Below, piece after piece: positions 6,524 to 59,492 of a stretch of DNA of 64,000 nt; position 1 is the first letter of the stretch; every line of letters begins with the position of its first letter. The DNA lies in the NCBI RefSeq assembly GCF_001425705.1, contig NZ_LMDC01000012.1:251402-315401 (forward strand), read 5' to 3'. The notes below the pieces were generated by a model. The model worked only from the letters and a program-made list of their open reading frames with translations, did no database searches and was not told where the DNA came from. A program made the translations under genes and the position numbers. The DNA is from Pelomonas sp. Root1217 (GTDB lineage: Bacteria > Pseudomonadota > Gammaproteobacteria > Burkholderiales > Burkholderiaceae_C).

Positions 6524-7458
6524 ACTGGAACAACCCCCTCATCGAACAGCGGGCCGACCCGCACCTGAGCTTGGTCAACGGCCGCTACTGGTTCACGGCG
6601 TCGGTGCCGAGCTATGACGCCATCGAGATCCGCGTTGCCGACAGCATCGCCGGACTGGCCACCGCACCCGCCAAGGTGATCTGGCGCGCGCACGACAGCG
6701 GCCCGATGAGCTTTCACGTCTGGGCGCCCGAGCTGCACCGCATCGATGGCCGCTGGTATGTCTACTTTGCCGCCAGCGAGCGTGACGACATCTGGAAGCT
6801 GCGCATGTACGTCCTCGAATGCGCAGGCGACGACCCGCTGGTCGACGCCTGGGTGGCGCGCGGCCAGATCGTCACGCCCGAGGAGGGCTTCTCGCTGGAC
6901 GCCACGCCCTTCGAGCACAACGGCCGCCGCTACCTCTGCTGGGCGCAGAAGAGCCCACCGACCGAGAGCAACCTCTATCTCGCCGAACTGGCCAACCCGT
7001 GGACGCTGGCCAGCGAGCCGGTCGTCATCACGCGGCCCGAGCTGGCCTGGGAGCGCATCGGCTTTCACGTCAACGAAGGCCCCGCCGTGCTCAAGCGCAA
7101 CGGCTGTGTCTTCATCGCCTACTCGGCGGCCGCGACCGACGCGAACTACTGCATGGGCCTGCTGTGGGCCGACGCAGGCGCCGACCTGCTGGACCCACCG
7201 AGCTGGCACAAAGCGCCCACGCCGGTGTTCTGCACCCACGCCGCCGCGAGCCAGTTCGGCCCCGGCCACAACAGCTTCACGACGACGCCCGACGGCAAGA
7301 CCGACCTGCTGGTCTATCACGCCCGCAACTACCGCGACATCGTCGGCGACGCGCTGAACGATCCCAACCGCCACACCCGCGTGCAGGCCTTCGGCTGGCG
7401 CGACGACGGCTTCCCCGACTTCGGCGTGCCGGTCGCCGACGGCCCTTATTCGATCTGA
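6520..7458 (+). CDS. GH43 family glycosidase (arabinosidase/xylosidase type)
   Basis: 312 residues, the full size of a one-domain GH43 enzyme. It has the N-terminal catalytic aspartate motif RADPHLSL, SFHVWAPELHRIDGRWYVYFAA, and the late NEGPAVL and GHNSFTTTPDG segments. No signal peptide is present, so a cytoplasmic role in finishing imported oligosaccharides is likely. Its ATG overlaps the GH51 stop, so the two are probably translated together. The exact linkage cut is not visible. Confidence 0.88.
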   Translation: MNWNNPLIEQRADPHLSLVNGRYWFTASVPSYDAIEIRVADSIAGLATAPAKVIWRAHDSGPMSFHVWAPELHRIDGRWYVYFAASERDDIWKLRMYVLECAGDDPLVDAWVARGQIVTPEEGFSLDATPFEHNGRRYLCWAQKSPPTESNLYLAELANPWTLASEPVVITRPELAWERIGFHVNEGPAVLKRNGCVFIAYSAAATDANYCMGLLWADAGADLLDPPSWHKAPTPVFCTHAAASQFGPGHNSFTTTPDGKTDLLVYHARNYRDIVGDALNDPNRHTRVQAFGWRDDGFPDFGVPVADGPYSI

Positions 7459-43435: not shown

Positions 43436-44620
43436 TCAGCACAGCCCCTCAGCTCTCTGGAGGTTTGCAACGCCGTCGGGCCAGGACTCCTGATCGACGC
43501 ATCGGTTCTTGTTTCGCAACGCCGGCAGCAGCACCTCGTCCGCGAACGGGCAGCCGGTGATGCCTGGATCCTGCTGCCGTTCCTTGCCGGCCTCGTCGGG
43601 CGCATGCCCTGAGTCGATCCTTGCTAGCAGCGCTTCGTAGCCCGGCCGCCATGCGGTGCAGGCAGGAAAACTCGCGCGCAGTTGCGCCAGGATGGCCAGG
43701 CCGGCGAAGTCAAGATCGCCGTAGAAGCTCACCGCGGGCGCGCCCAGTTGCCCATACAGCCAGTCCTCGAAGCGTTGGGCATCCGTGTCGGACACGCGAC
43801 CGCGCCAGTACAGCGATGAGCCTGTGTGCTCGCGCAAGCGACGTGCCCCACTGCGAAAGCCTGCCGCGTACAGCAATGCAGCGCGCGCCCAGGCCGGCTG
43901 GCGGTGCCCTGCCATGCGCTCGAAGCTCACGCCGTTCTCGATGAACAGGACTTCTTCGCCCGTCCAGTCCCTGGGCAGGTCGACAAGCAGCTGGATCGGT
44001 GCCTCCAGAAACCGCCCTTCGTCAGCGCCCAGCAGTCGCAGCAGTTCCTCCCGCGCATCCAGTACCTTGCTGTGCCCGCGGAAATGCCGGGCCGACAACT
44101 CGCGCAGGTAAGGCGTTGTCTGCGCCGGGTGCCCCGCCAGGTCAGCGGCAAGTGCGTTCAGGAGGGCGGCACAGTCTCCTGGCTCCCGCCCCTCGAGGGC
44201 GGGCAGCGGGTTGCGCAGCAGATAGTCCAGCAATGCAGGCGCATCGGGCACGGCCAGCAATGTCGGCTGCTCGCGCAGCGCCTGCACCAGCACACGGCTC
44301 CAGCGCGGCGCGGCGGGCTCGAAGCCGCTCCACTCGGCCAGCGCCTGTGCATCGAGCAGCAACAACGCCGGCCTGCGATCGGCCAGCGTCTGGAAAGCCC
44401 GCGCCTTGTCCGCCTTCAGCCGAACCCAGCCGGTCGCGCCGAGGTCGTCCAGCAGCAGTTCCAGGTGTGCCAGCGCCTCTGGCGACGCCGCGCTGTGAAG
44501 TTCCGGCAGCTCAGTTGCGTCAAGCGCCAGAGAGACAGCCCGTCCGCCCTCGCTGCGCTCGGCCTTGCGCAGCAACGCATGGGCCAGGCGCAACTGGAGT
44601 GGGTGCGGCGGCGGCTTCAT
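43436..44620 (-). CDS. jetD: Wadjet JetD: Toprim-fold nuclease
   Basis: 394 residues. C-terminal Toprim-like core: FIENGVSFE with Glu228, then SFYGDLDFAGLAIL with Asp302/Asp304, and a later DQE near residue 378. The N-terminal part is the DUF3322-type arm domain. JetD cuts plasmid DNA after the JetABC motor has extruded and sized a circular molecule. Start ATG 44620 overlaps the jetC stop, so it is last of four coupled genes. Confidence 0.92.
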   Translation of the reverse strand: MKPPPHPLQLRLAHALLRKAERSEGGRAVSLALDATELPELHSAASPEALAHLELLLDDLGATGWVRLKADKARAFQTLADRRPALLLLDAQALAEWSGFEPAAPRWSRVLVQALREQPTLLAVPDAPALLDYLLRNPLPALEGREPGDCAALLNALAADLAGHPAQTTPYLRELSARHFRGHSKVLDAREELLRLLGADEGRFLEAPIQLLVDLPRDWTGEEVLFIENGVSFERMAGHRQPAWARAALLYAAGFRSGARRLREHTGSSLYWRGRVSDTDAQRFEDWLYGQLGAPAVSFYGDLDFAGLAILAQLRASFPACTAWRPGYEALLARIDSGHAPDEAGKERQQDPGITGCPFADEVLLPALRNKNRCVDQESWPDGVANLQRAEGLC

Positions 44621-47600
44621 GCCGTCCGCTCTGCGTTCTGTTGGTCTTCGAAGGCCAGCGTCGCCTGGGCCCTGGCGGCCTGGGCATGCGCATCCCACAG
44701 CGCCGACAACGCCTCGCGCTTGAAGTCCTTCTCCTGGACCTCGCTGATGTGCACGACCTGACCGTCGGCTTCCGCTTCCAGCTTCGAGAAGGTGTATTCC
44801 TTGTCGAACTCGGGCTTGATCGCGCCGGACTTCGACGTGGGCATCGCCACGATCAGTTGCAGGCCCATGTTCTGCGCGAGAAAGCGCATCACGGCCCGCG
44901 AACGCGCCTCGTCCATCTTCGAGAAGGCCTCGTCGCTGAGCATCAGCCGCAGCGCCGGTGCGTTTGGCGCGCGGCCGAAATGCCCGAGCGCATGGGCCAG
45001 CACGGCGGCGCGGATCACGTAGAACGGCGTCTCCAGCTCGCCGCCGGAGCCGGTGCCCCAGGTGGACATCGGCGTGCGGTGGCCGCCGGCGATGCGGTGG
45101 ATGTCGTAGCGGCGGTAGTTGCGATAGTCGGCCAGCTCCTTGAGCGCGCGCTCGGCGGCGATCTGGTCCTGCGACAGCAGCAGCCGCTTGATCTCCTGGG
45201 CCGTGGCGCGGTGCTCGGGCGAGAGCTGGGGGGCGTCGAAGATGGCAGTGCGGTCCTTCTCCAACTGGTCGACCACGCCGTCCAGCGCCTCGAAGAAGTC
45301 GTAGTAGTCCTTGTAGCGCGGTACCCAGTCCTGCACCACGTCGTAGGAATCCACCCCGAACTGGATCGCCTTGAGCTCCTGGCTGAGCTTGCGCAGCGTG
45401 TTGGAACCATCCTTCACGTCGCGCCTGACCTTGAAGCAGAAGTCGCTGGTGAAGACATGGTTGAAGGTGCCCTCGGCCTTCTCCAGCCGCGCAACGTTCT
45501 CGGCCAAGCCGATGCCATCTTGCCTGCGCATCTGCTCGCGCGCGGCCTGCTGCACGGCCAGCACCGACTGCAACACGGCCTCGATCTGCTCGACACTGCG
45601 CGGCGGCTCGGTCCAGCCGAAACGCTCTTCATCGGTGCGCGCGCCCGCCAGGTAGGTGGCGATGTGGTTGCGCAGCGTCTTGAGGCGGTCCGGCAGGTTC
45701 TCCGAGGCATTCGTCGCATGGTTCTGCAAGGTGGCAGCGCTGGGCAGGTCGGCTTCTCCAAGCGAGCGGGCCTCGTCCAGCAGTTGCAACTCGCTGGCCA
45801 CCGCGCCGCCGGCGTCTGCAAAGCGGCTGATCCAGACCTGGGCCGTGACGATGTTCTGCGCCAGCTCGGGCAGCCGGCCCTCGAGGTCGCCAAGTGCCTT
45901 GAGCACCTGGCCGAGTTCCTTGTTCTGCACGCCGACCGCCTGCTGCTCGGCGTCCCACTGGGCCTGCTTTGCATCCAGGCGCTCGTGCAGCGCGTCGCGT
46001 CGCTGCTCCTGCGCCTCGATGCTGGAGGTGTCCAGCTGCTGCAGATGAAACTCGACGTCGACATGCCGCAGCCGTGTCTCCAGCGCCTCGCCCAGCGTTT
46101 GCGCCAGCGAGGCGGCGCTGCTCTGGCTGAACCAGCCCTGCACCGTCGTCAGCGACTGCGCCATGCTTTTGAGCCCCTGCAGCTCGGGCACCAGGGTATC
46201 GAGCCGCGCATTGACCCAGGCCAGCCGCCGCTTGCGGCTCTCGACGCCGAAGGCCAGCTCATGTTCGGCCGCCAGGCAAGCGAACATGCCGTAGGCACGG
46301 CTGCCCAGGCCCTGCTGCATCAGGCCTTGCGGCGTGCGGCGCAGTTCCGCTTCGCTGGCGACCTGGCGCACGCGCCCATACAGCGCCAGCAGGTAGGCCT
46401 TGGCCACCGGGTGCTCGCAGACCAGTTCACTGAGCAGGCTGCGCGGTGCAACGGCCATGCCACGCGTGTCCTCGATGGCCTTGGCGCCTTGCACGACCTT
46501 TGGCGAGCGGCGCGCGAAATGGCGCTTGACGAGCCGGATCGCGTCTTCCTCGAAGTCCGGTTCCACGATCAGCGCGAAGCGATCGCGTCCCATATAGCCT
46601 TCCACGGCAGCCTGCCAGGCGCTGCCCGGGCGCGGCTCGATCAACGCGGCCAGCAGGCGCGGCCGGCTCTCGGGCAGCTCAGCCTCCAGCAGCCTCAAGG
46701 CCCGCTGCACGTCGTCCGGCGCGGACGTGCGCCCCTCGAGCAGCTGCGCCTGCTCGGCGCGCAGGCCGGTCTGCTCGTCCAGCAGTTGGGACTGCTGCCT
46801 CAGCAGCTCGCTGCGCGCCGTCACCAGCGCGGACATCACGGTCGTCTCGTCGGCGCCGAGCAGCACCGCCTCCAGCGCCCGCAGCGCCTGATCCAGCGGC
46901 TCGAGCTCGAACGCGGCCAGCTCGTCCCCGAGCCGGGCATCGGTCAGCAGCGCCACGCGAGCCGGCTGCCACTGCTTCGTCGCCCGAAAGGCGGCCGAGC
47001 CCAGCCGCTGCACCGCTGCCTGCAGGGCCGGCAGCAGTGACAGGTCCAGCGCCAGCAGCTGGTTCACATGGTCCAGCACCTGATCCATCTGCCGGGCGGA
47101 CTGCTGCACCCGGCTCCAGTCCTTGCGGAACTGTTCGGCGTACTGCGCCTCCAGCGTCGTCAGACGCTGCTTTTCCTGGGCGATGCCGCTTTGCGCCAGT
47201 TCGCCCTGCACCAGCGCCAATTCATGGTCGAGCGTCTTGCGCTCGAGGGCGATCGCGTCCAGGCGCCGCTGCGACTCGGTGGCGTGGCCCTGGAGCTGCG
47301 CGCGGCGGCGTTCGGTGCGCTCCCGCTCGGCCAGGGTGTCAAGCTGCATGCGCAGCGCATGGGCATTGAGCATCACGACGTGGCGGCGCAGCAGCGCCAC
47401 AACATCGCCGGCCGCCTCGTCCACCAGTTTGAGCCGATCGATGTTCAGCTTCAGGCGCTCGGCGTCGGCCTTCAGCCGGGCGATCTCCTGCATGAGCTGG
47501 CGCATCTTGCCGACTTCCTGGCTGAAGTCGTGCGCGTCGAGAATCTCGTCGCGCACCAGTTCGTTGACGTTGCCGATCTCGCGGTAGGCCATGGCCTTGA

Positions 47601-48252
47601 CGATCGCGCGGGCGCAGCGTGTGGCATCCGCCTCGGGGACGAACTTGCGGCCGAGCAGGTGGCCGTACAGATGCTGCAGATAGCTGTCCTTGCCTTCGAA
47701 GCGCATCAGCTGCTCGGCCTGCAGGCCCAGCCTCAGCTGCAGCTGGGCGTAGGCTTCCTTCAGCGGCAGAGGCCGAACGCGCCCTGGCACGGATTCGCCC
47801 GAAGACAGATGCGACAGCGTCAGACTCGCCCCGCGCAGCAGGTAGAACAGCGGCTTGCCGCCTTCGGCGCGGCCGCCGTCCACATGGGCCTCGACACCCA
47901 GCAGCGCGCTGAACGGCACGGCGTCCTTTTCCTGGTCCGACGGTTCGAAGCACAGCCCCACGTAGCTGGTCGAGCGCTGGCGCAGGAAGACGTCGCTGCC
48001 GCACTGGCCCAGCGCGTAGGCATGCAGGGTTCGCGGCTCCTTGCCGCCGCGACGGCCCTGGGTCGACTCGTTCTGCCCGGCATTGAAGTGAAAGACCCCT
48101 TGGCGGGCCGCCGTGAGCACGGCCTGGATGGCATCCAGCAGCGTGGACTTGCCCGAGCCGGATTCGCCGGTCAGCAGCGTGGCGTCGGCCAGCGGCCAGT
48201 CACGCGTCTCCAGCGTGCCCCAGTTGACAGTGATCAGTCGTTGCAGCCGCAT
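44617..48252 (-). CDS. jetC: Wadjet JetC: SMC/MukB-like ATPase
   Basis: 1211 residues. Walker A GESGSGKST (29-37) opens the head, followed by two long coiled-coil halves around a hinge-like middle. The C-terminal head has LMLSDEAFSKMDEARSRAVMRFL (signature and Walker B region). This is the loop-extruding SMC-like motor of Wadjet, which forms a dimer with JetA (kleisin) and JetB (KITE). Start lies one base before the jetB stop on the minus strand, and its stop overlaps jetD. Confidence 0.93.
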   Translation of the reverse strand: MRLQRLITVNWGTLETRDWPLADATLLTGESGSGKSTLLDAIQAVLTAARQGVFHFNAGQNESTQGRRGGKEPRTLHAYALGQCGSDVFLRQRSTSYVGLCFEPSDQEKDAVPFSALLGVEAHVDGGRAEGGKPLFYLLRGASLTLSHLSSGESVPGRVRPLPLKEAYAQLQLRLGLQAEQLMRFEGKDSYLQHLYGHLLGRKFVPEADATRCARAIVKAMAYREIGNVNELVRDEILDAHDFSQEVGKMRQLMQEIARLKADAERLKLNIDRLKLVDEAAGDVVALLRRHVVMLNAHALRMQLDTLAERERTERRRAQLQGHATESQRRLDAIALERKTLDHELALVQGELAQSGIAQEKQRLTTLEAQYAEQFRKDWSRVQQSARQMDQVLDHVNQLLALDLSLLPALQAAVQRLGSAAFRATKQWQPARVALLTDARLGDELAAFELEPLDQALRALEAVLLGADETTVMSALVTARSELLRQQSQLLDEQTGLRAEQAQLLEGRTSAPDDVQRALRLLEAELPESRPRLLAALIEPRPGSAWQAAVEGYMGRDRFALIVEPDFEEDAIRLVKRHFARRSPKVVQGAKAIEDTRGMAVAPRSLLSELVCEHPVAKAYLLALYGRVRQVASEAELRRTPQGLMQQGLGSRAYGMFACLAAEHELAFGVESRKRRLAWVNARLDTLVPELQGLKSMAQSLTTVQGWFSQSSAASLAQTLGEALETRLRHVDVEFHLQQLDTSSIEAQEQRRDALHERLDAKQAQWDAEQQAVGVQNKELGQVLKALGDLEGRLPELAQNIVTAQVWISRFADAGGAVASELQLLDEARSLGEADLPSAATLQNHATNASENLPDRLKTLRNHIATYLAGARTDEERFGWTEPPRSVEQIEAVLQSVLAVQQAAREQMRRQDGIGLAENVARLEKAEGTFNHVFTSDFCFKVRRDVKDGSNTLRKLSQELKAIQFGVDSYDVVQDWVPRYKDYYDFFEALDGVVDQLEKDRTAIFDAPQLSPEHRATAQEIKRLLLSQDQIAAERALKELADYRNYRRYDIHRIAGGHRTPMSTWGTGSGGELETPFYVIRAAVLAHALGHFGRAPNAPALRLMLSDEAFSKMDEARSRAVMRFLAQNMGLQLIVAMPTSKSGAIKPEFDKEYTFSKLEAEADGQVVHISEVQEKDFKREALSALWDAHAQAARAQATLAFEDQQNAERTA

Positions 48253-48253
48253 G

Positions 48254-48937
48254 TCAGGCGTCCCCAGCGGCGACCGGCAAAGGCACGTCTTGCGCCTTGG
48301 TCTGCATCAGCTGGCGCACTTCAAGCAGCGCCTCGTCGCTGACGAAAGAAAGGATGGGCCGCAGCACGCCCAGCAGCATCTCCATCTGGCCGAACCCGGC
48401 ATCGGCTTCCCGAAAGCGCACCAGCCGGTGCTTGCGCAGCTCGCGCAGCAATTGACCGCGCTCTGCCGCCGAGCCCGGCAGCGTCGTGCCCAGCAGCGAC
48501 ACCAGCGTCTGCGACAGCTCCTCCAGGCTGATGGCCAGCTCCTGGTTGACCAGTTCGCGCTTTCCGGTCAGTCCCTCGGTGTAGAGAAAGCGCAGGCCCA
48601 GCGCGGCGGCGACCATGTCCTTGGACAGCCGCGCGCGCAGTCGCTTGACGCCGTCCTCGTCTTCCTGGTCGTCGCCCGGCGGGTAGAGCCGCATCAGGTT
48701 GGCATCGACGTCATGCGTGAGCGTGAACCCCAGCACGTCAAACCATTCGCGCAGCAGTTCCTCGGCCAGCGTGGCGTCGTCATAGAGCGCCTGCTCCGGT
48801 TTGGAATAGTCGCGCCAGAGGATGCCGGCCGCCAGCAGGCGGTTGCAGATCTCGGCGAAGCGCCGGCGCGAGACATTGCCAGCGGTACGGTCGGCAAGGC
48901 GAGTCTCGAGCAGGGCGTGGAAGGTATCGGTGGTCAT
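48254..48937 (-). CDS. jetB: Wadjet JetB: KITE-type subunit (DUF4194)
   Basis: 227 residues with the DUF4194 pattern (FAEICNRLLAAGILWRDYSKPEQALYDD, a winged-helix pair ending RFREADAGFGQMEMLLGVLRPILSFV). It corresponds to MukE-like KITE proteins that bind the kleisin JetA in the Wadjet complex. ATG 48937 overlaps the jetA stop by four bases and its stop is two bases before jetC. Confidence 0.9.
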   Translation of the reverse strand: MTTDTFHALLETRLADRTAGNVSRRRFAEICNRLLAAGILWRDYSKPEQALYDDATLAEELLREWFDVLGFTLTHDVDANLMRLYPPGDDQEDEDGVKRLRARLSKDMVAAALGLRFLYTEGLTGKRELVNQELAISLEELSQTLVSLLGTTLPGSAAERGQLLRELRKHRLVRFREADAGFGQMEMLLGVLRPILSFVSDEALLEVRQLMQTKAQDVPLPVAAGDA

Positions 48938-50361
48938 GTCTTTGGCAGGCGGCGCAGCTCGAAATCGTCTGCGATGAAGCTGGTTGTCTCGAAGCGTTCG
49001 TCGAGCTTCTTGACCTGCCAGCGCTGGCGTCCCTGCGCGGAGCGCGCCGCGCCCACGGCATGCAAGCTGGTCAGGACTTCGTCCGCGCGCCGCGCCGCGA
49101 GATCGGACAGGCGCAGCGACACGGCACCCGAGTGGCCCAGTTGCCGCAGCACCGCCTCCTCACTGATGACGAAAGCCTCGGCCTCGGCACGGCGCAGCGC
49201 CGCCTCGAGCCGGCTGTCCGCGCGGATCCGCCATTCGGTGTCGTCGCCCTCGAGCTGCTGGCGCTCGCGCTGCGTCCAGCGCAGGCCGCCGGCGGGCAAC
49301 AGGCGCAGCTCGGTCGTGGCCAGGCGCCGGCCCAGCAGTTCGAGCCAGGCTTGCTTGCCCGCGGCGTCAGCAGCCTTGATGCCGTCCAGCGTGAGGCCCA
49401 TCGGAGATTCCGCGCCGTAGTCCAGCGAGAGCGCCTGGCGCAGCAGGCTGGTGAAGCGGCGCACGTAGTTGTGCATCTCGCTGCGCAACATCGGCAGTTT
49501 CAGCTCGCAGGCCGCGTCGATCAGCTTTTCAATCCGCTGGCATAGCCACAGCGTGGCGCTGCGTCCGTTGCCGAGCACCGGCTCCAGCCAGTCGGCACGC
49601 TGGTGCAGTGCGGCGTCGGCGCGCTCGCGCTGCTCGGCGGGCCAGGCGCGAATCTGGTCCAGCAGCTCGATGATCTGGCCGCGGTGGCGGTCCACCGAAT
49701 CGGCCACCAGCCGCACGGACATTTCCTTGCCGAAACGGCGCTCCAGAAAATCGTTGAACTCGTCCCAGGCCAGCTTCTGCGTCAGCGCCTCGCGGGTGAG
49801 GCTCTGCATCAGCGCGCGGAAGTACTCGATGTCGTCCTGCAGGTCCTGCACGACGCGGCTGGCGTAGTCGTGTGCGTCCAGCAACTCGTCTTCGTCATGG
49901 TTGTCCAGGAACGCCAGCAGCGCCTTGCGGGCCGAGCGCATATTGCGCTGGCGGGTCTTGTGGCGGGCGTTGTCCAGCTCGGCGAAGGTCTCGGCGAAGG
50001 CTTTGCCAGCACGGGTCAGCTTGAGCACCGGTTGCAGGTCGATGGGATCCTTGTAATCCTCCAGCCAGCCGTGCTCCTTCAGCGCACGTAGCAAGTTCAG
50101 CGCGTAGCCGCGCTCGGCCTCGGCATTCACCGCCTGGGCGGCGGAGAGTGCTCCCTCGCGGTAGGCTGGTTGGGCGATCACGCCCAGGCAGATCTCCAGC
50201 ACCAGGTCCTTCGTCAGCGCCTGCGCGTAGTCGGCCTCCGGGCCATGCACGCGCTCGTGCAGGCCGCGCAAGACCGCAGCGCAGGCCTCGCGATCTGCCC
50301 AGGTCAGCGGGCGAAAAAAATGTTCACAAGCGCCGTGAAAGAAGATCGCCGACGCGGACAT
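48934..50361 (-). CDS. jetA: Wadjet JetA: kleisin subunit (DUF3375)
   Basis: 475 residues from ATG 50361, preceded by a strong GGGGAGGA. The DUF3375 body contains winged-helix and long helical parts (VQDLQDDIEYFRALMQSLTREAL, RRFGKEMSVRLVADSVDRHRGQIIELLDQIRAW). It is the MukF-like kleisin of Wadjet. First gene of the jetABCD operon, all four genes touching or overlapping. Three of the earlier codons (from 50376) are possible but poorer starts. Confidence 0.92.
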   Translation of the reverse strand: MSASAIFFHGACEHFFRPLTWADREACAAVLRGLHERVHGPEADYAQALTKDLVLEICLGVIAQPAYREGALSAAQAVNAEAERGYALNLLRALKEHGWLEDYKDPIDLQPVLKLTRAGKAFAETFAELDNARHKTRQRNMRSARKALLAFLDNHDEDELLDAHDYASRVVQDLQDDIEYFRALMQSLTREALTQKLAWDEFNDFLERRFGKEMSVRLVADSVDRHRGQIIELLDQIRAWPAEQRERADAALHQRADWLEPVLGNGRSATLWLCQRIEKLIDAACELKLPMLRSEMHNYVRRFTSLLRQALSLDYGAESPMGLTLDGIKAADAAGKQAWLELLGRRLATTELRLLPAGGLRWTQRERQQLEGDDTEWRIRADSRLEAALRRAEAEAFVISEEAVLRQLGHSGAVSLRLSDLAARRADEVLTSLHAVGAARSAQGRQRWQVKKLDERFETTSFIADDFELRRLPKT

Positions 50362-50752
50362 GGATGTCCTCCCCAATTCATGCGGCCTGCCGGATTGGCC
50401 TTTGTCCGGCGGCGCTGGTGCCGATTATCACGGCGAGGATGTTCCTGCCCCAGGGCGATACGCGGCGATACGCAGCCCAAGGAAAACTCCCTGCCGCGGC
50501 CCAATTGCAATGCTGCGAACTTGCGCACAAAGCGAACTTCGTGCTGCGACAAGAGCTTACGTCGCTCGGCCGATGCGAACTATTTCGACCGTCGAGGCCT
50601 CGCCAGCCCGTAGATCGTGGCGGGCCGACCTGGCCAAGCATGCGGCCTCGCCTGTGCCTCGACACGAACGTCTGCTGGTGCGTTGTCGATCCGAAGCGCT
50701 ATCGCCGCGGCGACGAGTGCAGCGGGCTGATGACGGCCAAAGCGGCCGGCTC
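50362..50752. other. 391-base gap between rtcR and jetA
   Basis: Holds no convincing gene. Both flanking genes are on the minus strand, so the jet promoter should be here, near the jetA side. I see no clear -10/-35 pair or strong terminator by eye. Confidence 0.5.
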
Positions 50753-52351
50753 TCAGGAACGCACCATCTCCCACGTGAGCCCAAACTTCAGCAGATATTT
50801 GCGCAGCCGGTCTGCGTCGTTGATGACAGCGCGCTGCTTTCGCGATCGATCAAACAGCCGGCGGCCAGCATCGGACAGGGTTTGCGCCTGCCGGCAAACA
50901 CTCACAACGGCCTCAAGCTGGAGACGATCAAAGAGATCCAGGTCCTCTGCCGTGCCTTCAGGCAGCAGTTCATCGAGCCGGACGTCCGACTGCCGAGAGT
51001 CGCCCGCGGGCTGCCACAGCCATTGAAGGCGCTGGATTTCGGCCTCGACCAGGCTGGTTGAAATTCGCCCACCATCCGCCAGCGTGGCCATCCGTGTCAC
51101 GCTGGCCATCAGGTCGCGGAAGTTGCCGCTCCAGAGTGCGCCCGCGGATTTGGCGAACCGCAGATAGTCGGCCTTGGCCTCGGCATTGAATCGCACCGCT
51201 CGACCTGACTCTGCCACGTAGCGGGCAAGCAGGTGGTCGACATTGGGCTCAATGTCCTCGGGCCGCTGCGCGAGACCAGGCAGCGTGTAGGCCCAGAGGT
51301 TGATACGGGCGAACAGGTCCTCGCGAAAACGCCCCTGCGCGACATCGACGCGCAAGTCCCGGTTGGTGCCGGCGATCAGTTGGAAGTCGCTGCTAACCTC
51401 ACGGTCGCTACCCATCGGGAAAAAGCGCTTCTCTTCCACCGCCTTGAGCAGCATGGCCTGCTCATCGAGGCCCAGCTCACCAATCTCATCGAGGAAGAGA
51501 ACGCCCTGATGCGCCGTGCGCAACAGGCCAGCCCGGTCCGCCGCAGCACCGGTGAACGCGCCCTTCTTGTGGCCGAACAGCGTTGACGCTGCGCCGTCAC
51601 CGCGCAGCGTGGCGCAGTTGACCTCGACGAAGTCGCCCTGGACCTGGTGACGCGATTTCTTGAGCTCGAACATGCGCCGCGCCAGGTGCGACTTGCCTGC
51701 GCCCGTCGGGCCGGTCAACAGGACGGGTGCCTGTGAGCGCACGGCCACTCGCTCGATTTCCTCGATGAGGGCATTGAAGCGCTTGTTGCGGGTGGGGATG
51801 CCACTTTTAAGGAACTCCAGCGCCTCCGCATGGGCTTGGCTGAAGCGCTGGGCCAGCACGTCGTACCGCGAAAGGTCCAGGTCGATCAGCGTGTAGCTGC
51901 CTGGGTTGTCCCGCTGCTGCTTCTTTGGCGGTGCCGTCTGCAAAAGCACGCCAGGGATGAAGCGCGACTCCACCATCAGGAACATGCAGATTTGCGCGAC
52001 GTGCGTGCCAGTGGTGATGTGGGCCCAGTACTGCTCGTGGGCCGGATCGAAGCGGTAGCTTCGCGCCCAGTCATAGAGGGCGGCGTACATCACGCCGAAA
52101 TCCCACGGGTCCCCTACGTCGAAGGGCACCAAATTGACGACCGTGTCTGGCGACACGTTGGCGATATCGCTCGCCAGGACATGGGCCAGCGCCTCGTGCT
52201 TCGTCGAGTAGAGGAGCTCCAGCCGGTCGATGACGGTGTCTTCGTGCTGCACCAGCGAGATCGTCGGACGCCATTTCTCCCAACGACCTGCACCCTGTCC
52301 CGAATCCAGCTGGGTGCCCATGAATCCGATGACGACGTTCTTCTTGGTCAT
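50753..52351 (-). CDS. rtcR: RtcR: sigma-54 activator with CARF-like sensor
   Basis: 532 residues. The N-terminal 180 residues form the RtcR CARF-like sensor (MTKKNVVIGFMGTQLDSG, YWAHITTGTHVAQICMFLMVES). The central AAA+ domain has LLTGPTGAGKSHLARRM (Walker A) and the sigma-54 contact loop GAFTGA. The C-terminal helix-turn-helix ends AGRRLFDRSRKQRAVINDADRLRKYLLKFGL. RtcR senses RNA ends with 2',3'-cyclic phosphate and turns on the rtc genes, which lie divergently from it. The intergenic region has its likely palindrome and a sigma-54 promoter. Confidence 0.92.
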   Translation of the reverse strand: MTKKNVVIGFMGTQLDSGQGAGRWEKWRPTISLVQHEDTVIDRLELLYSTKHEALAHVLASDIANVSPDTVVNLVPFDVGDPWDFGVMYAALYDWARSYRFDPAHEQYWAHITTGTHVAQICMFLMVESRFIPGVLLQTAPPKKQQRDNPGSYTLIDLDLSRYDVLAQRFSQAHAEALEFLKSGIPTRNKRFNALIEEIERVAVRSQAPVLLTGPTGAGKSHLARRMFELKKSRHQVQGDFVEVNCATLRGDGAASTLFGHKKGAFTGAAADRAGLLRTAHQGVLFLDEIGELGLDEQAMLLKAVEEKRFFPMGSDREVSSDFQLIAGTNRDLRVDVAQGRFREDLFARINLWAYTLPGLAQRPEDIEPNVDHLLARYVAESGRAVRFNAEAKADYLRFAKSAGALWSGNFRDLMASVTRMATLADGGRISTSLVEAEIQRLQWLWQPAGDSRQSDVRLDELLPEGTAEDLDLFDRLQLEAVVSVCRQAQTLSDAGRRLFDRSRKQRAVINDADRLRKYLLKFGLTWEMVRS

Positions 52352-52366
52352 ATCTAAATTGATACC

Positions 52367-52383
52367 AGACTAGCCAATAGTCT
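52367..52383. promoter_or_regulatory. Candidate RtcR binding palindrome
   Basis: AGACTA-GCCAA-TAGTCT, a 6-base perfect inverted repeat, 16 bases from the rtcR start and about 115 bases upstream of the sigma-54 promoter. This is the right range for an enhancer-type activator site. Binding is inferred. Confidence 0.5.
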
Positions 52384-52495
52384 AGTTCGTCTGGATTTCA
52401 TCGCGGTCCCCCATTGAGTCGTGAGCCCCGCGAAAAAGTACTTTTGTATTGCTAATCAATAGCTTGCAAGTTTTCACCTCGGACAGACGAGGAGC

Positions 52496-52511
52496 TGGCA
52501 CACCCGTTGCA
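52496..52511 (+). promoter_or_regulatory. Sigma-54 promoter of rsr-rtc operon
   Basis: TGGCACACCCGTTGCA matches the -24 GG / -12 GC consensus (TGGCAC-N5-TTGCA) with exact spacing. It lies 47 bases before the rsr ATG, divergent from rtcR. Confidence 0.88.
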
Positions 52512-52557
52512 ATAAGGAGAGCGCGAACAACAAGTTAAATGCAACGAGGAGAACCTC

Positions 52558-54132
52558 ATGGTCAACACGCAGCTCTTCCACACGATCAAAGGCGCCCTGC
52601 TGCCCGCAGCCACGGCGCGCAACGCTGAGCAGGCTCCGGCCTACGCCTTCAGCCCGCGTCATCAACTGGCGCAGCTGGCGGCCACGGGCTGCCTGAGCCA
52701 GACCTTCTACGCAAACGCCGAGGACCAACTCGACCAAGTTCTGGCGCTGACCCAGAAGCTCGAGCCCGTCTTCATTGCCAAGACCGCGATCTATGGTCGC
52801 CAGTCGGGCCACATGAAGGACATGCCGGCTTTGCTCGCGGCGAGCCTCGCCGTTCGCGACGTCGCGCTGCTGAGCCAGGTGTTCTCTCGCGTCGTCGACA
52901 ACGGCAAGATGCTGCGCAACTTCGTGCAGATCCTGCGCAGTGGTGCCGTGGGCCGCAAGTCGCTGGGTTCCCGCCCGAAGAAGCTGGTTCAGCACTGGCT
53001 GCTGACGGCCTCCGAGAAGCAACTGTTGAACGCCGCGGTGGGCAACACGCCCTCGCTGGCGGACGTGGTCAAGATGGTTCACCCCAAGCCCGCTGAGGCA
53101 TGGCGTGCCGCTTGGTTCGCATGGCTGATCGGCAAGCCGGTCGATGAAGCGGCACTGCCGCCCATCACCCAGGCGTTCGAACGCTTCAAGCGCGACATCG
53201 CCCAAGGCGTGGCCACCGAAGTGCCGGACGTGCCGTTCCAGATGCTGACCGCGCTGGAGCTGATCTCAGCGCAATGGGCGCAGATCGCTCGCTCGGGCTC
53301 GTGGCAGATGGTGCGTCAGAACCTGAACACCTTCGCCCGGCATGGCGTGTTCAACCTCCCCGGCATGGCCAACGCGGTGGCCGCCAAGCTGAGCGATGCG
53401 CAAGCCGTGGCCAAGGCACGGGTGATGCCGTACCAGCTGATGTCGGCCTTCATGGCGGCCGGCGAGTCGGTGCCTGCCCAGGTTCGCGATGCGTTGCAGG
53501 ATGCGATGGAACTGGCTCTGGTCAACGTGCCCAGCCTGGCGGGTCGTGTCGTGGTGTGCCCTGACGTGTCGGGCTCAATGAGCTCGTCCGTGACCGGTTA
53601 TCGCGGCTCGGCGACCTCCAGCGCGCGTTGCATCGACGTGGCTGCCCTGGTGGCTGCTGCGGTGCTGCGCAAGAACCCGCAGGCCCGTGTGCTGCCGTTC
53701 GAACAGGATGTGGTGAAGCTGTCGCTGAACGCTCGTGACTCGGTCATGACCAACGCCCAGGCGCTGGCCAAGATCGGTGGCGGCGGTACCAACTGCAGCG
53801 CGCCGCTGGCTCTGCTGAACCGCCAAGGTGCGGAGGTGGACCTGGTGATCCTGGTCTCGGACAACGAGTCCTGGGTCGACGCCAACCGGCGCGGTGCGAC
53901 GCAGACCATGCGCGAGTGGGAAGTGCTGAAGCAGCGCAACCCGAAAGCGCGCCTGGTGTGCATCGACATCCAGCCGACGGCGACCACGCAGGCGGCCGAG
54001 CGGCACGACATCCTGAATGTCGGCGGCTTCTCGGATGCGGTGTTCACGATGGTGGCGAATTTCGCCGCCGGCAACATGGACGCCGAGCACTGGGTCGGTG
54101 AAATCGAAAAGGTGTCGTTGGCCGCCCAGTAG
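52558..54132 (+). CDS. rsr: Rsr: Ro60-like ring protein (TROVE and von Willebrand A domains)
   Basis: 524 residues. An all-helical TROVE/HEAT ring (MLRNFVQILRSGAVGRKSLGSRPKKLVQHWLL, LISAQWAQIARSGSWQMVRQNLNTF) is followed by a von Willebrand A domain with the metal site CPDVSGSMSS (Asp-x-Ser-x-Ser). Ro proteins bind Y RNAs on the outside of the ring and the ends of misfolded or broken RNAs in its hole. In bacteria they guide nucleases such as PNPase. It lies after the sigma-54 promoter, GAGGAGAAC precedes ATG 52558, and the Y-RNA-like array follows directly. Confidence 0.92.
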   Translation: MVNTQLFHTIKGALLPAATARNAEQAPAYAFSPRHQLAQLAATGCLSQTFYANAEDQLDQVLALTQKLEPVFIAKTAIYGRQSGHMKDMPALLAASLAVRDVALLSQVFSRVVDNGKMLRNFVQILRSGAVGRKSLGSRPKKLVQHWLLTASEKQLLNAAVGNTPSLADVVKMVHPKPAEAWRAAWFAWLIGKPVDEAALPPITQAFERFKRDIAQGVATEVPDVPFQMLTALELISAQWAQIARSGSWQMVRQNLNTFARHGVFNLPGMANAVAAKLSDAQAVAKARVMPYQLMSAFMAAGESVPAQVRDALQDAMELALVNVPSLAGRVVVCPDVSGSMSSSVTGYRGSATSSARCIDVAALVAAAVLRKNPQARVLPFEQDVVKLSLNARDSVMTNAQALAKIGGGGTNCSAPLALLNRQGAEVDLVILVSDNESWVDANRRGATQTMREWEVLKQRNPKARLVCIDIQPTATTQAAERHDILNVGGFSDAVFTMVANFAAGNMDAEHWVGEIEKVSLAAQ

Positions 54133-54162
54133 GGCCGCGACACAGGAAGTTGGACGGTGTCC

Positions 54163-54260
54163 CAGGCGAATGCCTGCAGGAGTACAGCACCTTTGGCCGC
54201 GCGGGCATGCAAGCCCGCAACGGAGAACCGGTAGGCCGCTCTTGCAACTCTTGTCGCCTG
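54163..54260 (+). ncRNA. Y-RNA-like module A
   Basis: Outer stem CAGGCGA (54163-54169) pairs with TCGCCTG (54254-54260). The 5' inner-loop side begins ATGC. Upper stem GCAGGAG pairs with CTCTTGC. The tip is a GGCC-closed three-way junction with hairpins GCGGGC/GCCCGC and CGG/CCG. It starts about 30 bases after the rsr stop. No T-loop sequence is present in this copy, but the stem and TACA motif after it match the other four. Confidence 0.72.
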
Positions 54261-54293
54261 AGGCACCAACCTCACAACAGAACATGCGTCGTC

Positions 54294-54355
54294 GCGTGGC
54301 GAATGCAGGTGGGACTACATCCAAAACGTGTCTCACCGACTGTTTGTCGCCACGC
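54294..54355 (+). ncRNA. Y-RNA-like module B (minimal)
   Basis: Outer stem GCGTGGCGA (54294-54302) pairs perfectly with TCGCCACGC (54347-54355). Internal loop ATGCA opposite GACTGTTTG; upper stem GGTGGGAC pairs with GTCTCACC. The tip is only a short loop beginning TACA. About 62 nucleotides with no effector module: the bare Ro-binding stem. Confidence 0.75.
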
Positions 54356-54372
54356 GGGGGCCACCAGTTTTT

Positions 54373-54466
54373 GCGCGAATGCTGGCAGGACTACATCTGG
54401 AACGCCGGGGGTTCGAATCCTCAACCGGGAAACCGGTGTGGCAGTGTCTTGCCCCTCTTGTCGCGC
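54373..54466 (+). ncRNA. Y-RNA-like module C with T-arm-like tip
   Basis: Outer stem GCGCGA pairs with TCGCGC (54461-54466). Upper stem GGCAGGAC pairs with GTCTTGCC. The tip has a T-arm-like hairpin (GGGG-TTCGAAT-CCTC) followed by ACCGG-GAAA-CCGGT, a tetraloop hairpin in the place of an acceptor stem. The internal loop has ATGCT and CCTCTTG, as expected from the other copies. Confidence 0.75.
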
Positions 54467-54482
54467 TTTTTTGAGATGCCTT

Positions 54483-54609
54483 GCTGCGAATGCAGGTGGA
54501 ACTACAGATAACGACTCTCGTGGTCGCGGGTTCGAGTCCCGCCGGTCCCAAATCAGGGGGACCGTAGCTCAGTGGTAGAGCACGACGTTTCACCAATCCT
54601 TGTCGCAGC
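54483..54609 (+). ncRNA. Y-RNA-like module D (YrlA-like, permuted tRNA)
   Basis: Outer stem GCTGCGA (54483-54489) pairs with TCGCAGC (54603-54609). Upper stem GGTGGAAC pairs with GTTTCACC. The tip is a nearly complete tRNA body in permuted order. A small ACGA/TCGT hairpin comes first, then T-arm GCGGG-TTCGAGT-CCCGC, then a 7-pair acceptor-like stem CGGTCCC/GGGACCG closed by an 8-base loop, and a normal D-arm GCTC-AGTGGTA-GAGC. This is the architecture known for bacterial YrlA RNAs that mimic tRNA. Confidence 0.85.
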
Positions 54610-54629
54610 GGGGCATCACCCGCTTTTGC

Positions 54630-54765
54630 GGTGAATGCAGATGGAACTACAGGTAGACGCACGCGGCGAAAGCTGCGTGCTCTGTGAGTGATCACAGAGC
54701 GCCCGGGTTCAAGTCCCGGTCCAGCAATGGATGGCGGAGCAAATGTTTCATCAAACCTAGTCACC
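54630..54765 (+). ncRNA. Y-RNA-like module E with extra hairpins and T-arm
   Basis: Outer stem GGTGA (54630-54634) pairs with TCACC (54761-54765). Upper stem GATGGAAC pairs with GTTTCATC. The tip has hairpins GCACGC/GCGTGC and CTCTGTGA-GTGA-TCACAGAG, then a T-arm CCGGG-TTCAAGT-CCCGG and TCCA-GCAA-TGGA in place of an acceptor stem. A D-arm is not clear. The last module ends 25 bases before the next coding start. Confidence 0.8.
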
Positions 54766-54790
54766 CCTCTTCTTTGATCGACCAATCGTC

Positions 54791-55561
54791 ATGAGCCTCG
54801 CAGCAATTGACCCGCAATCCGTGGATGCCGTCATCGCCGACGCCTACAAGGTGTTCGGTCGATACCGGGCGCCCACCGTGCAGCTCGACGCATGTCTCTG
54901 CTGCATGTGCCCCACGCTGGAGGAGCAAATGCGCAAGCTGCCTTTGCGCAGGCTCACCCGAGAGCATTTCTATGAGTACAACACCGCCGCCAAAGGCGAG
55001 GTGCAGCCCGTATGGGAGGTCCTGTACTTTCTGCCGCGACTGCTCGAGCTGATCGCTCATGGGGAAGACGTGCACCACTCCACCGAGCTCTACCTGGACC
55101 GCGTCGGCCGCTGCCCGCCGCAAACCTTCAATGAAGCTGAACGCGAAGTGCTCAATCGGTTCGCGATCAACTACTTCGCCGGCCATCTGGCATCCCGTGA
55201 CCAGCGTCCGCTCGAAGACGCCTTGACCGTGCTGCTGATGTTCCATATCGGTGGGTTTGACCTGCCACCGCTACTGGACTATTGGCTGCATTGCCAGGAC
55301 CCGTGGTCGACGGTGCACTATGTCGAAGCCGGTTACTGGCACTTCTGGGAGGACCGAGAGGTCACCAACGCCTTTGCGCAAGATCGCATCGAGTTTCGGC
55401 AGAGCATCCGCCAATGGATGCTGGCACCGGCTCACCGCAACATCTTCGCTGACAAGCTGATGCGCCCCGACTTTCTGAACCTGGTTGAGAACCAGCCCGA
55501 CAGTGGACGCATGCCGTTCAAGCTCCTTGTCGATGCTGTCTTCGACAACCTGATCGAGTAA
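54791..55561 (+). CDS. Uncharacterised protein of the rsr-rtc operon
   Basis: 256 residues, ATG 54791, between the RNA array and rtcB, 13 bases before the latter. A Cys cluster LDACLCCMCPTLEEQ (near residue 35-39) could bind metal. The rest is helical with many aromatic residues (LLDYWLHCQDPWSTVHYVEAGYWHFWED). I do not recognise a family. Its position makes a role in RNA end sensing, repair or Ro function likely. No ribosome binding site of note is seen, so its translation may depend on the structure or processing of the RNAs before it. Confidence 0.7.
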   Translation: MSLAAIDPQSVDAVIADAYKVFGRYRAPTVQLDACLCCMCPTLEEQMRKLPLRRLTREHFYEYNTAAKGEVQPVWEVLYFLPRLLELIAHGEDVHHSTELYLDRVGRCPPQTFNEAEREVLNRFAINYFAGHLASRDQRPLEDALTVLLMFHIGGFDLPPLLDYWLHCQDPWSTVHYVEAGYWHFWEDREVTNAFAQDRIEFRQSIRQWMLAPAHRNIFADKLMRPDFLNLVENQPDSGRMPFKLLVDAVFDNLIE

Positions 55562-55574
55562 AGAGAACCAAACC

Positions 55575-56792
<1,218 letters not shown>

Positions 56793-56843
56793 ACGGATGG
56801 GGGCCCAGTGCCCTCACCCACATCAGAACAAGAAGAGAAGAAC

Positions 56844-57881
56844 ATGATCGAAATTGACGGCTCCGTCGGCGAGGGCGGAGGACAAATCCTGCGGACTTCG
56901 CTGGCCCTGTCCATGTGCACGGGCCAGCCCTTCGCGCTGAACAAGATCCGCGCTGGCCGCGCCAAGCCCGGCCTGATGCGCCAGCACCTGACCTGCGTGA
57001 ACGCCGCGGCTGAGATCTGCGGCGCCGAGGTCCAGGGAGCTGAGCTGAATTCGCAATCGCTGAGCTTCACACCAGGCCAAGTGCGCGCGGGCGACTACAC
57101 CTTCAATGTCGGCACGGCGGGCAGCTGCACGCTCGTGCTGCAGACCGTCTGGCCGGCATTGATGCTGGCCGATGAACCCAGCCAGTTGAAGCTCGGGGGC
57201 GGAACGCACAACCCCATGGCGCCACCCTTCCACTTCCTGGAGCGCAGCTATGCGCCGCTGCTGCGCAAGCTCGGCGCGGAGGTCGAACTCGAACTGCGTC
57301 GCCTGGGCTTCTACCCGGCCGGCGGAGGCGAGATCGAAGTCAAGATCTGGCCCGCCGGCGACCGGCTGCAGGCTTTCGATCTGAACGAACGGGGTGCCAG
57401 GCTTGAGGGCTACGCCGAATGCTTTGCGCCGGCGCTGCCGCGCTCGGTGGTCCGGCGCGAGCTGCAGCAACTGGGTGCGGACCTTGGCTGGAGTGACGAG
57501 CAGCTGCGCGAGGCAGCCAGCCGCCAGAACGAAGGGCCTGGCAATGCGCTTCTGGCGACGTTGGTGTACGAGAACGTCTGCGAGGTCGTCACCGGGTTTG
57601 GCGAGAAGGGCGTCAGCGCCGAGCAGGTCGCGCGCGACGTCGTGCGCGAGGTGCGGTCCTACCAAGTCAGTGACGCTGCGCTCGGGCCTCACCTGGCCGA
57701 CCAGTGGGCACTGCCGCTGGCGCTTGCCGTGTGGCGGCGCGGGGGAGCGGCGTCATATACCTGCACGGAGCTGACGCCTCACGCGCTGACCAACTTCGAG
57801 ACCATCAAGCTGTTCCTGCCGGTGAGGTTCTCGACGTCTGGATCAGGAAGCCGCTGGTCCGTCAGCGTCAAGGCTCGTTGA
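56844..57881 (+). CDS. rtcA: RtcA RNA 3'-phosphate cyclase
   Basis: 345 residues from ATG 56844. It converts RNA 3'-phosphate ends to 2',3'-cyclic phosphate with ATP. Family start MIEIDGSVGEGGGQILRTSLALS, the GTAGSCTLVLQTVWP segment, and the nucleotidylated histidine region ELTPHALTNFETIKLFLP near the end are all present. 51 bases after rtcB on the same strand, it completes the rtc operon. Confidence 0.94.
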   Translation: MIEIDGSVGEGGGQILRTSLALSMCTGQPFALNKIRAGRAKPGLMRQHLTCVNAAAEICGAEVQGAELNSQSLSFTPGQVRAGDYTFNVGTAGSCTLVLQTVWPALMLADEPSQLKLGGGTHNPMAPPFHFLERSYAPLLRKLGAEVELELRRLGFYPAGGGEIEVKIWPAGDRLQAFDLNERGARLEGYAECFAPALPRSVVRRELQQLGADLGWSDEQLREAASRQNEGPGNALLATLVYENVCEVVTGFGEKGVSAEQVARDVVREVRSYQVSDAALGPHLADQWALPLALAVWRRGGAASYTCTELTPHALTNFETIKLFLPVRFSTSGSGSRWSVSVKAR

Positions 57882-58833: not shown

Positions 58834-58910
58834 GCCTCGTTAGCTCAGTGGAGAAGAGCGCCGGCCTACGAAGCCGGAGGCCGGAGGTTCGACTCCTTCA
58901 CGAGGCACCA
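58834..58910 (+). tRNA. tRNA-Arg (anticodon ACG)
   Basis: Acceptor GCCTCGT/ACGAGGC, D-arm GCTC/GAGC, anticodon stem CCGGC/GCCGG with loop CTACGAA, T-arm GGAGG-TTCGACT-CCTTC, and encoded CCA. All arms fold. First of five tRNA genes on one strand. Confidence 0.9.
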
Positions 58911-58918
58911 AGTTCTAT

Positions 58919-58993
58919 GTCCCGTTGGACTTCGGGTGAGGTCCTCGGCCCTTCAAGCCGAAGAGGCGGGTTCGACTCCCGCACGGGATGCCA
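58919..58993 (+). tRNA. tRNA-Glu-like (anticodon TTC), divergent
   Basis: Acceptor GTCCCGT/ACGGGAT, D-arm GACT/GGTC, anticodon stem TCGGC/GCCGA with loop CCTTCAA, T-arm GCGGG-TTCGACT-CCCGC and encoded CCA. The loop has C, not T, before the anticodon, which is unusual for a working tRNA. It starts 8 bases after the tRNA-Arg. Confidence 0.75.
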
Positions 58994-59102
58994 GACCAGA
59001 AGCCTGTCGTCGAGCTCACGCTTCGACAGGCGCAAACCGGCCGCAACGATTGGGCGGCGTCGGAACCCGTCACCGACAACCTTTCGGAGCATCGAGAAGA
59101 AG

Positions 59103-59179
59103 CCGTGCGTGGCGCAACCAGGGAGCGCAACTGCTTTGGGAGCAGAGGGTTGCAGGTTCAAGTCCTGCCGCACGGACCA
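59103..59179 (+). tRNA. tRNA-Pro (anticodon TGG)
   Basis: Acceptor CCGTGCG/CGCACGG, D-arm GCGC/GCGC, anticodon loop TTTGGGA between CTGC and GCAG (fifth pair is an A-A mismatch), T-arm with GTTCAAGTC, and encoded CCA. The core matches standard proline tRNAs. Confidence 0.85.
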
Positions 59180-59190
59180 GTTGAAAGCAC

Positions 59191-59266
59191 GTCGCCATAG
59201 CTCAGTTGGAAGAGCGCCGGTCTGTCGAACCGGAGGTCGCGGGATCGAGACCCGCTGGCGACGCCA
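59191..59266 (+). tRNA. tRNA-Asp (anticodon GTC)
   Basis: Acceptor GTCGCCA/TGGCGAC, D-arm GCTC/GAGC, anticodon stem CCGGT/ACCGG with loop CTGTCGA, T-loop ATCGAGA instead of the common TTCGA, and encoded CCA. The T-loop change is uncommon. Confidence 0.88.
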
Positions 59267-59297
59267 GAGAAAAGATTAGCGCAGCGTGCGTTTGGGT

Positions 59298-59370
59298 GTG
59301 GCCGTCGCCTAGCGGTCGAAGGCTCAAGGTTGTGATCCTTGCATCGCCGGTTCGAATCCGGCCGGCCACC
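59298..59370 (+). tRNA. tRNA-His-like (anticodon GTG)
   Basis: Acceptor GTGGCCG/CGGCCAC, anticodon stem CAAGG/CCTTG with loop TTGTGAT, T-arm GCCGG-TTCGAAT-CCGGC. A T, not G, is at position -1 and an extra C lies before CCA, so charging as a normal His tRNA is not certain. Confidence 0.8.
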
Positions 59371-59492
59371 CCCAAGCGCATGCCACCCCACCCGGGGGCG
59401 TCGCATACACAGCCGTTCGAAAGGCGCGCGCCTCGCGGCACGCGAGATCGAACCAGGGAATTCCATCGTGCCAAGTCGAAAGGGAGGACGCC

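Follow-up and report, generated by a model that had tools for sequence, protein, structure and literature searches.

What are five different Y RNAs doing beside one Ro60-type gene, and what do their dissimilar tips resemble? The question is raised by a 64,000-nucleotide stretch of Pelomonas sp. Root1217 DNA (referred to here as the window), in which a tandem array of five Y-RNA-like modules (A to E) lies among RNA repair genes. The gene order is rtcR, which is divergent on the minus strand, followed on the plus strand by rsr, the Y RNA array, orfX, rtcB, and rtcA. The first-pass annotation had placed the five modules at positions 54163 to 54765, and both their coordinates and their layout proved correct: A to E were found by a core descriptor consisting of an outer stem (5' strand ending in A), ATG, an inner stem, a variable tip, the inner stem again, 6 to 10 nt, and the outer stem beginning with T. 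The descriptor had exactly five matches at positions 54101 to 54800, compared with a mean of 0.1 and a maximum of 2 in 300 dinucleotide shuffles of this 700-base region. Because the whole window contained 18 matches on the plus strand (including the five of the array) and 6 on the minus strand, isolated matches are uninformative, and it is the cluster that counts. The coordinates of the modules, their parts, and the neighboring genes are presented in the table.

Features of the Y RNA array and its operon in the window (all positions are those of the window)
Feature	Positions	Strand	Evidence or remark
rtcR, sigma-54 activator with CARF-type domain	50753..52351	-	PF06956, E 1.5e-81
Candidate sigma-54 (-24/-12) promoter, TGGCACACCCGTTGCA	52496..52511	+	46 bases 5' of rsr; 1 mismatch to consensus
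rsr, Ro60/TROVE-vWA protein, 524 aa	52558..54132	+	PF25045 vWA_Ro60, E 1.3e-20; TROVE, E 3.6e-6
Module A, core and three-way-junction tip	54163..54260	+	Hairpins 54201-54218 and 54221-54230
Module B, core and short loop, YrlB-like	54293..54356	+	Core descriptor
Module C, T-arm and acceptor-like GAAA hairpin	54373..54466	+	T-arm 54407-54422; hairpin 54424-54437
Module D (YrlA), permuted tRNA opened in anticodon arm	54480..54612	+	RF02553
D: T-arm	54526..54542	+	
D: closed acceptor stem	54543..54564	+	
D: whole D-arm	54565..54581	+	
Module E, permuted tRNA opened in D-loop	54630..54765	+	Descriptor, alignment, rotation scan
E: 3' half of D-loop and D-stem, GGTAGACGC	54652..54660	+	Shared with tRNA-Leu(cag) of the same genome
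E: anticodon-stem hairpin, 4-nt loop in place of 7-nt anticodon loop	54661..54678	+	
E: long variable arm, class II type	54679..54700	+	
E: T-arm, CCGGG-TTCAAGT-CCCGG	54703..54719	+	
E: short acceptor stem closed by GCAA loop, without CCA end	54720..54731	+	
E: 5' half of D-arm, TGGCGGA	54732..54738	+	Also found in tRNA-Leu(cag)
orfX, 256 aa, between array and rtcB	54791..55561	+	No family match
rtcB, RNA ligase	55575..56792	+	PF01139, E 4.9e-127
rtcA, RNA 3'-phosphate cyclase	56808..57881	+	PF01137, E 1.1e-78; NF003246 above cut-off

Two other readings of the region were considered. ARAGORN detected no tRNA genes inside the array, and the possibility that it consists of true tRNA genes was rejected on this basis; a group of five conventional tRNA genes (Arg, Glu, Pro, Asp, and His; ARAGORN) lies downstream of the operon at 58834 to 59372. 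Open reading frames cross the array on both strands, and a coding function was set aside in view of tip insertions among relatives and covarying stems; the length of module E across relatives is 115 to 169 nt.

The flanking genes identify the operon. The rtcR product scored 821.6 bits with NF038308 (cut-off, 650) and also matched the PADLOC RtcR CARF_AAA_HTH model. The rsr product aligned with the solved Rsr of D. radiodurans (2nvo; E 3.3e-20) over residues 21 to 506 and remained under the strict NCBIfam cut-off for Rsr (77 of 900 bits); the nearest rsr loci are 95 to 96% identical to that of the window. Scored against what we presume to be the sigma-54 consensus, sites with two or fewer mismatches occurred at chance level in the whole window (16 found; 15.2 expected), and the candidate promoter is thus argued from its position between rtcR and rsr. 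No sigma-70 promoter or terminator patterns were present in positions 52352 to 55600, which is consistent with a single transcript. With the thresholds used, orfX had no Pfam, NCBIfam, or PADLOC match; its relatives occupy the same place in three loci (L021, L064, and L071), and a 32% match lies elsewhere in L027.

The spacing between rtcB and rtcA is 15 bases in the window. In locus L023, these genes flank RlaP, a member of the RNA repair polymerase-beta family (7670 to 8524; E 1.4e-95). The 31 linked proteins between rtcB and rtcA that cluster with it include a HEAT-repeat-like protein (L041), so not all of them are RlaP. A metallo-beta-lactamase-fold protein was located between the two genes in five loci (L054, L056, L057, L069, and L072; two of the five Pfam-tested); we take it to be RNase Z-like and thus a possible tRNA 3'-end enzyme in the operon. 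Inspection by eye revealed no link between E modules and the accessory genes of the operon. A complete Wadjet type I set (JetD, JetC, JetB, and JetA; PADLOC models) adjoins rtcR at 43436 to 50376 on the minus strand.

Regarding Rfam, only module D exceeded a cut-off (RF02553, YrlA; 74.6 bits versus 69, matching 54483 to 54612). Modules E (31.1 bits) and C (26.7 bits) were YrlA-like below the same cut-off, and module B was YrlB-like (RF02565; 21.9 bits versus 97). With D over the YrlA cut-off and a Ro60/Rsr-like protein encoded next to the array, the earlier identification of the modules as bacterial Y RNAs of an Rsr operon stands. In a broad sense, all count as Y RNAs by structure and position, as they share a stem core with a conserved internal loop and lie beside a Ro60/Rsr gene; as such, they would be predicted to be stable and bound by Rsr. 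Module D and YrlA (RF02553; structure 6CU1) have in common the core stem, the ATGC loop, TACA, the T-arm, a closed acceptor stem, and the D-arm; the D-arm is missing from A, B, and C, and B shares the YrlB core without a large tip.

The tips had been read as different in each module, and they are: A carries a three-way junction, B is almost tipless, and D is a permuted tRNA. The first-pass annotation had further grouped C and E as T-arm types. For C, an acceptor-like hairpin has to be added to the T-arm; for E, the grouping was wrong, as this module is a permuted tRNA opened in the D-loop. Nothing in the analysis suggests base-pairing guidance by the modules, which had also been called guides.

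To place the array among its relatives, we compiled 95 rsr loci (94 fetched loci and the window) and scanned the region 3' of rsr as far as rtcB if it lay within 3.5 kb or, otherwise, over 2.5 kb or to the end of the locus. The scan gave 319 descriptor matches (mean, 3.36 per locus, versus 0.23 in shuffled sequence), which were reduced to 313 and then 311 modules by discarding weak matches (score, <25) and matches inside genes (L063 8718 and L084 9442). Sorting E from D by simple motifs was abandoned, as it misplaced modules with TCCGA T-loops and class II D-stems; three modules (L048, L025, and L078) were assigned to E manually. The 311 modules belong to 85 of the 95 loci. Among matches scoring at least 30 in the fetched loci L021 to L099 that have rsr followed by rtcB (three duplicates omitted), 245 were on the plus strand and none on the minus strand of the gap between these genes (47,892 bases), compared with 66 on both strands of the 847,654 bases elsewhere. 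The relatives therefore exclude chance more strongly than do the shuffles of the window array.

After omission of three loci with identical arrays (L024, L042, and L093; other near-duplicates were kept), 82 arrays remained, of which 78 contained two or more modules, 48 four or more, and 21 five or more. D was present in 77 of them, E in 42, and neither in three. The longest array observed lies in locus L130 (genome G032; 5355 to 6936, minus strand), where ten descriptor matches (score, 34 to 41) separate rsr from rtcB; L010, of which L130 is the extended version, has an additional short B module (score, 27).

The types follow a loose order of A-B-C-D-E. D preceded E in 42 pairs and followed it in 2; for B and D, the counts were 74 and 2; for C and D, 59 and 14; and for A and B, 20 and 10. 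In our opinion, most of the A/B reversals arose because degenerate C modules were filed as A, a class that is defined as having no canonical T-arm and takes in some degenerate C modules (Variovorax-type BADE arrays, L027, and L030). The nearest core in another locus was of the same type for 26 of 38 A, 49 of 64 B, 47 of 55 C, 86 of 100 D, and 32 of 42 E modules, with type frequencies of 0.13 to 0.33 and with neighbors of at least 0.93 similarity skipped and other close relatives kept. The modules thus have the appearance of ancient paralogues and not of recent duplicates.

Covariation within types points in the same direction as the earlier claim that the stems differ between copies and still pair, and it was seen in the E, A, and C alignments, for which core pairing was partly a selection criterion. 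The alignments took in 33 of 41 distinct E, 24 of 37 A, and 39 of 53 C modules. With core stems counted, both sides had changed in 15 of 32 pairs of A, whose tip stems were not a criterion, and in 14 of 22 pairs of C. These results bear on the proposal that several Y RNA copies just raise dosage while their tips drift. The number of modules in downstream arrays as counted varies from 1 to 8 (the ten matches of L130 aside), and some tips are degenerate, as this proposal would predict; however, the types keep their order and identity across loci and the tip stems covary, and we consider simple redundancy unlikely.

Module E represents another kind of permuted tRNA besides D. Its opening lies in the D-loop, and in the window it has D-arm halves of Leu type together with a long variable arm. 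Read 5' to 3', it starts with the 3' half of the D-arm (GG-TAG..C) and an anticodon-stem hairpin; the variable arm and the T-arm follow, and after an acceptor hairpin it ends in the 5' half of the D-arm. The GCG of TGGCGGA pairs with the CGC at 54658 to 54660, and the unconstrained minimum-energy fold of the window sequence forms the junction, including these three D-stem pairs. One relative (L021) has the same E sequence. After one rotation, the D-arm, T-arm, and acceptor stems of E stand in tRNA order, as in a tRNA mimic; E differs from a tRNA in its loop at the anticodon position, which is 3 to 6 nt long in all 41 distinct modules, and in its acceptor stem, which, in the 33-module alignment, ends in a loop.

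In that alignment, 95.1% of the cells were paired, compared with 28 to 47% when the partners were slid. Both sides had changed in 22 of 30 pairs (core stems counted), and the covariation score was 0.457 versus 0.183 when shuffled; given that E modules had been preselected by their D-stem halves and T-stem, this covariation is partly selected. One D-stem pair is CG in 17 sequences and AU in 15. Pairing is lost at the outermost D-stem position in 18 of 32 sequences, presumably through the G-A that is customary in class II, and at the innermost acceptor position in 20 of 33. The acceptor hairpin, which was not a criterion, had 86% of its cells paired, and all five of its pairs had changed on both sides.

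The opening point was located by a rotation scan against 38 tRNA sequences of one genome (ARAGORN readings from the loci of 56 Rfam matches, covering part of the 56, with some entries being one gene with and without CCA). The junction fell in the D-loop in 38 of 41 E tips (D-stem, 2; variable region, 1) and wholly inside the anticodon arm in 91 of 98 D tips, and rotation improved the score by at least 5 in 40 of the E tips and 97 of the D tips. A label-free scan of the 153 tips of at least 60 nt answers in part the preclassification of E by D-stem halves and T-stem: 134 tips were above the 99th percentile of the shuffled set (one shuffled version of each tip, with a coarser scanning step than for the real tips). 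Of these 134, 87 had the junction in the anticodon arm, 43 in the D-arm, and 4 elsewhere; the junctions of the shuffled tips were spread over all arms.

When unpermuted, the E tips outscored their as-is form in 33 of 33 cases and exceeded 20 shuffles in 32; the exception was the tip of L005. Their best tRNA match was Leu in 14 cases, Asn in 9, and others in 10. Because Leu is the best match in 14 of the 33, we apply the term Leu-like to class II E tips only. For the window's E, tRNA-Ser(gga) matches one point better than tRNA-Leu(taa), and the Leu label is given because both D-arm halves occur in tRNA-Leu(cag).

A 7-nt anticodon loop was absent from the folds of all 41 E tips. Between the D-half and the T-arm, the hairpin that comes first had a loop of 4 nt in 33 distinct E modules, 3 nt in 4, 5 nt in 3, and 6 nt in 1, including the first hairpin loops of three segments cut overlong between these arms (L036, L037, and L071). 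The tips therefore offer neither an anticodon loop nor a CCA end, as D is open at that place, E has a tetraloop, C lacks the arm, and loops cap the acceptor stems. This observation makes simple decoys of anticodon nucleases less likely and favors partners that recognize the elbow or the T-arm and acceptor. A decoy role, in which tRNA-like tips would absorb tRNA-cleaving toxins or nucleases and shield tRNAs upon induction of the operon, is nonetheless suggested by the response of the operon to cleaved tRNAs and by the competitive inhibition by YrlA that the available part of one report raises as a possibility (PMC7790460). The same text describes fragments of YrlA as undetected, and the site at which anticodon nucleases cut is missing from D and E; the cut-site argument covers anticodon nucleases and not those that bind the tRNA body only. 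On balance, we judge decoys to be improbable.

The closed acceptor stem bears on a further possibility, namely that the tRNA-like folds recruit tRNA maturation enzymes that free the Y RNAs from the rsr-rtcB transcript. The modules are arranged in tandem with linkers of 13 to 32 bases and without an internal promoter or terminator pattern, and the metallo-beta-lactamase-fold protein of the five Variovorax-type loci, if RNase Z-like as we presume, would fit such processing. However, the tRNA-like part lies inside a hairpin and its acceptor is loop closed; a cut at this place would therefore divide the Y RNA in two instead of releasing it, and modules A and B have no tRNA-like tip. Processing as the main role of the tips therefore appears quite unlikely.

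Feedback on RtcR is a third possibility. In the accessible part of one report, RtcR is activated by 5' halves of tRNAs with cyclic phosphate ends, which are bound by its CARF domain (PMC7790460); rtcR adjoins the array, and Y RNA tips resembling these halves could titrate the regulator. This same source ties the formation of RtcR oligomers to a 2',3'-cyclic phosphate end. The tip of an intact Y RNA has no such end to offer, and the D-arm is split in E, whereas a 5' half holds it in one piece. We regard feedback as very unlikely.

The distribution of E was examined with a covariance model built from the 33 E modules; it also recognizes D and further modules, and a match therefore does not prove an E. 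Among 399 genomes of the order, 15 matched, of which 13 were rsr positive. The two matching genomes without rsr (G073 and G344) gave weak matches (E 4.7e-4 and 9.2e-4), and their fetched stretches contained neither rsr nor a module. There were 17 genomes of the order with an rsr match (that of G140 being doubtful), four of them without a match to the E model. Among 398 genomes of the phylum, 10 matched, all beside rsr. The ten rsr loci without downstream modules (Neisseria and Cardiobacterium type) all had E model matches upstream of rsr (10 of 10, in which two pairs are apparently the same sequence). In Cardiobacterium hominis, a single chromosome has two rsr copies (L084 and L087), and each copy is preceded by several Y RNA model matches.

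The rotation scan identified E-form tips in four loci (L201, L202, L203, and L204) of two other families of the phylum and no clear ones in L206, L207, and L208. Other tip forms were also noted. Class II (Leu-like) tips opened at the anticodon occur in L130 and L213. A further type sharing CGCTCTCTGGCACGAGCGGG, neither D nor E, was found in L201 (4377), L202 (3904; both in reverse-complement coordinates), and L204 (4320). L213 (genome G279; 2909 to 3334, minus strand) has three Y-like modules, two tRNA-like and one of the three-way-junction type; rsr is absent from the 6.5 kb examined there and sits on another contig of G279.

E is unrecognized by Rfam, as are some D modules. In 13 further loci, eight matches passed the YrlA cut-off; all were D (8 of 14 D modules), and none of the E modules passed (0 of 13). 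Part of the E module of L034 (8092 to 8150) scored 31.7 bits with the Rfam tRNA model (cut-off, 29), and annotation may mistake modules of this kind for tRNAs.

The operon, YrlA, and permuted tRNA mimicry are already known. In circularly permuted tRNA genes, the tRNA halves stand in reversed order and are joined at the acceptor end, which is their likeness to E. Such genes have been described (PMC3978253, in the part available); E, in contrast, is no tRNA gene, lacks an anticodon loop and CCA, and is embedded in a Y RNA stem. The structure of YrlA (6CU1) superposes on tRNA through a circular permutation, according to the available text of PMC11472068. E departs from YrlA through its junction in the D-loop, its anticodon-stem hairpin, and a variable arm that is often long. 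The rsr-yrlBA-rtcBA operon of Salmonella, as described in the portions available of PMC7790460 and PMC9879122, has the same gene set, the same order of rsr, Y RNAs, rtcB, and rtcA, and a divergent rtcR; it contains two Y RNAs, whereas the window has five and an extra orfX, and L130 has ten descriptor matches. No report of a five-type ordered array or of a D-loop-opened form without an anticodon was found among the titles, opening parts of abstracts, and text passages searched. The novelty of the D-loop-opened Y RNA form is thus provisional.

We consider it somewhat probable that the array comprises five Y RNAs acting as Rsr adapters with tRNA-body tips, which tether tRNA-reading enzymes in an RtcR-controlled repair operon. 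Against this reading stand the variation of tip number and type among relatives, the E pairs that fail in many sequences, the tip of L005, the Ser match of the window's E, and the four genomes of the order with an rsr match but no E-model match. The array would be made as part of this operon. The common stem core is the presumed Rsr handle, with a different tip on each module, and the larger tips are tRNA bodies joined to the core via the anticodon arm (D), via the D-loop (E), or as a T-arm/acceptor minihelix (C). Such tips keep the elbow features of tRNA that enzymes read and lack those on which the ribosome, synthetases, and anticodon nucleases depend. They may tether Rsr to several readers of the tRNA body. 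According to the available part of PMC8394870, YrlA undergoes modification by DusA and TruB and connects Rsr with PNPase; enzymes of modification, trimming, and repair are candidates for similar partners. The ribonucleoprotein could in this way handle tRNAs broken in the anticodon loop, the signal inducing the operon. The analysis shows the modules themselves, how they are conserved, how their tips are built, and that they are linked to rsr; expression of the array in this organism, binding by Rsr, the existence of partners, and a division of labor between the tips are inferred.

The presence of at least two tRNA-like tips opened at different points suggests one RNA-handling protein with a kit of tRNA-shaped adapters. 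The different grafting points could turn the elbow in other directions, with other arms, and could suit different enzymes. A more specific version, that the array is an ordered kit of tRNA mimics lacking the anticodon, with one Ro60 handle placed on different tRNA sites (anticodon arm and D-loop) and classes (class I, Leu-like class II, and minihelix) as adapters for different enzymes when broken tRNAs are repaired, is possible, and we hold it with somewhat less than even confidence.

The D-loop-opened permutation would be a second natural route from a Y RNA to a tRNA mimic. The missing anticodon loop tells what the partner does not read. Given a conserved and loosely ordered set of tips, the partner or substrate of each tip would be testable by its removal.
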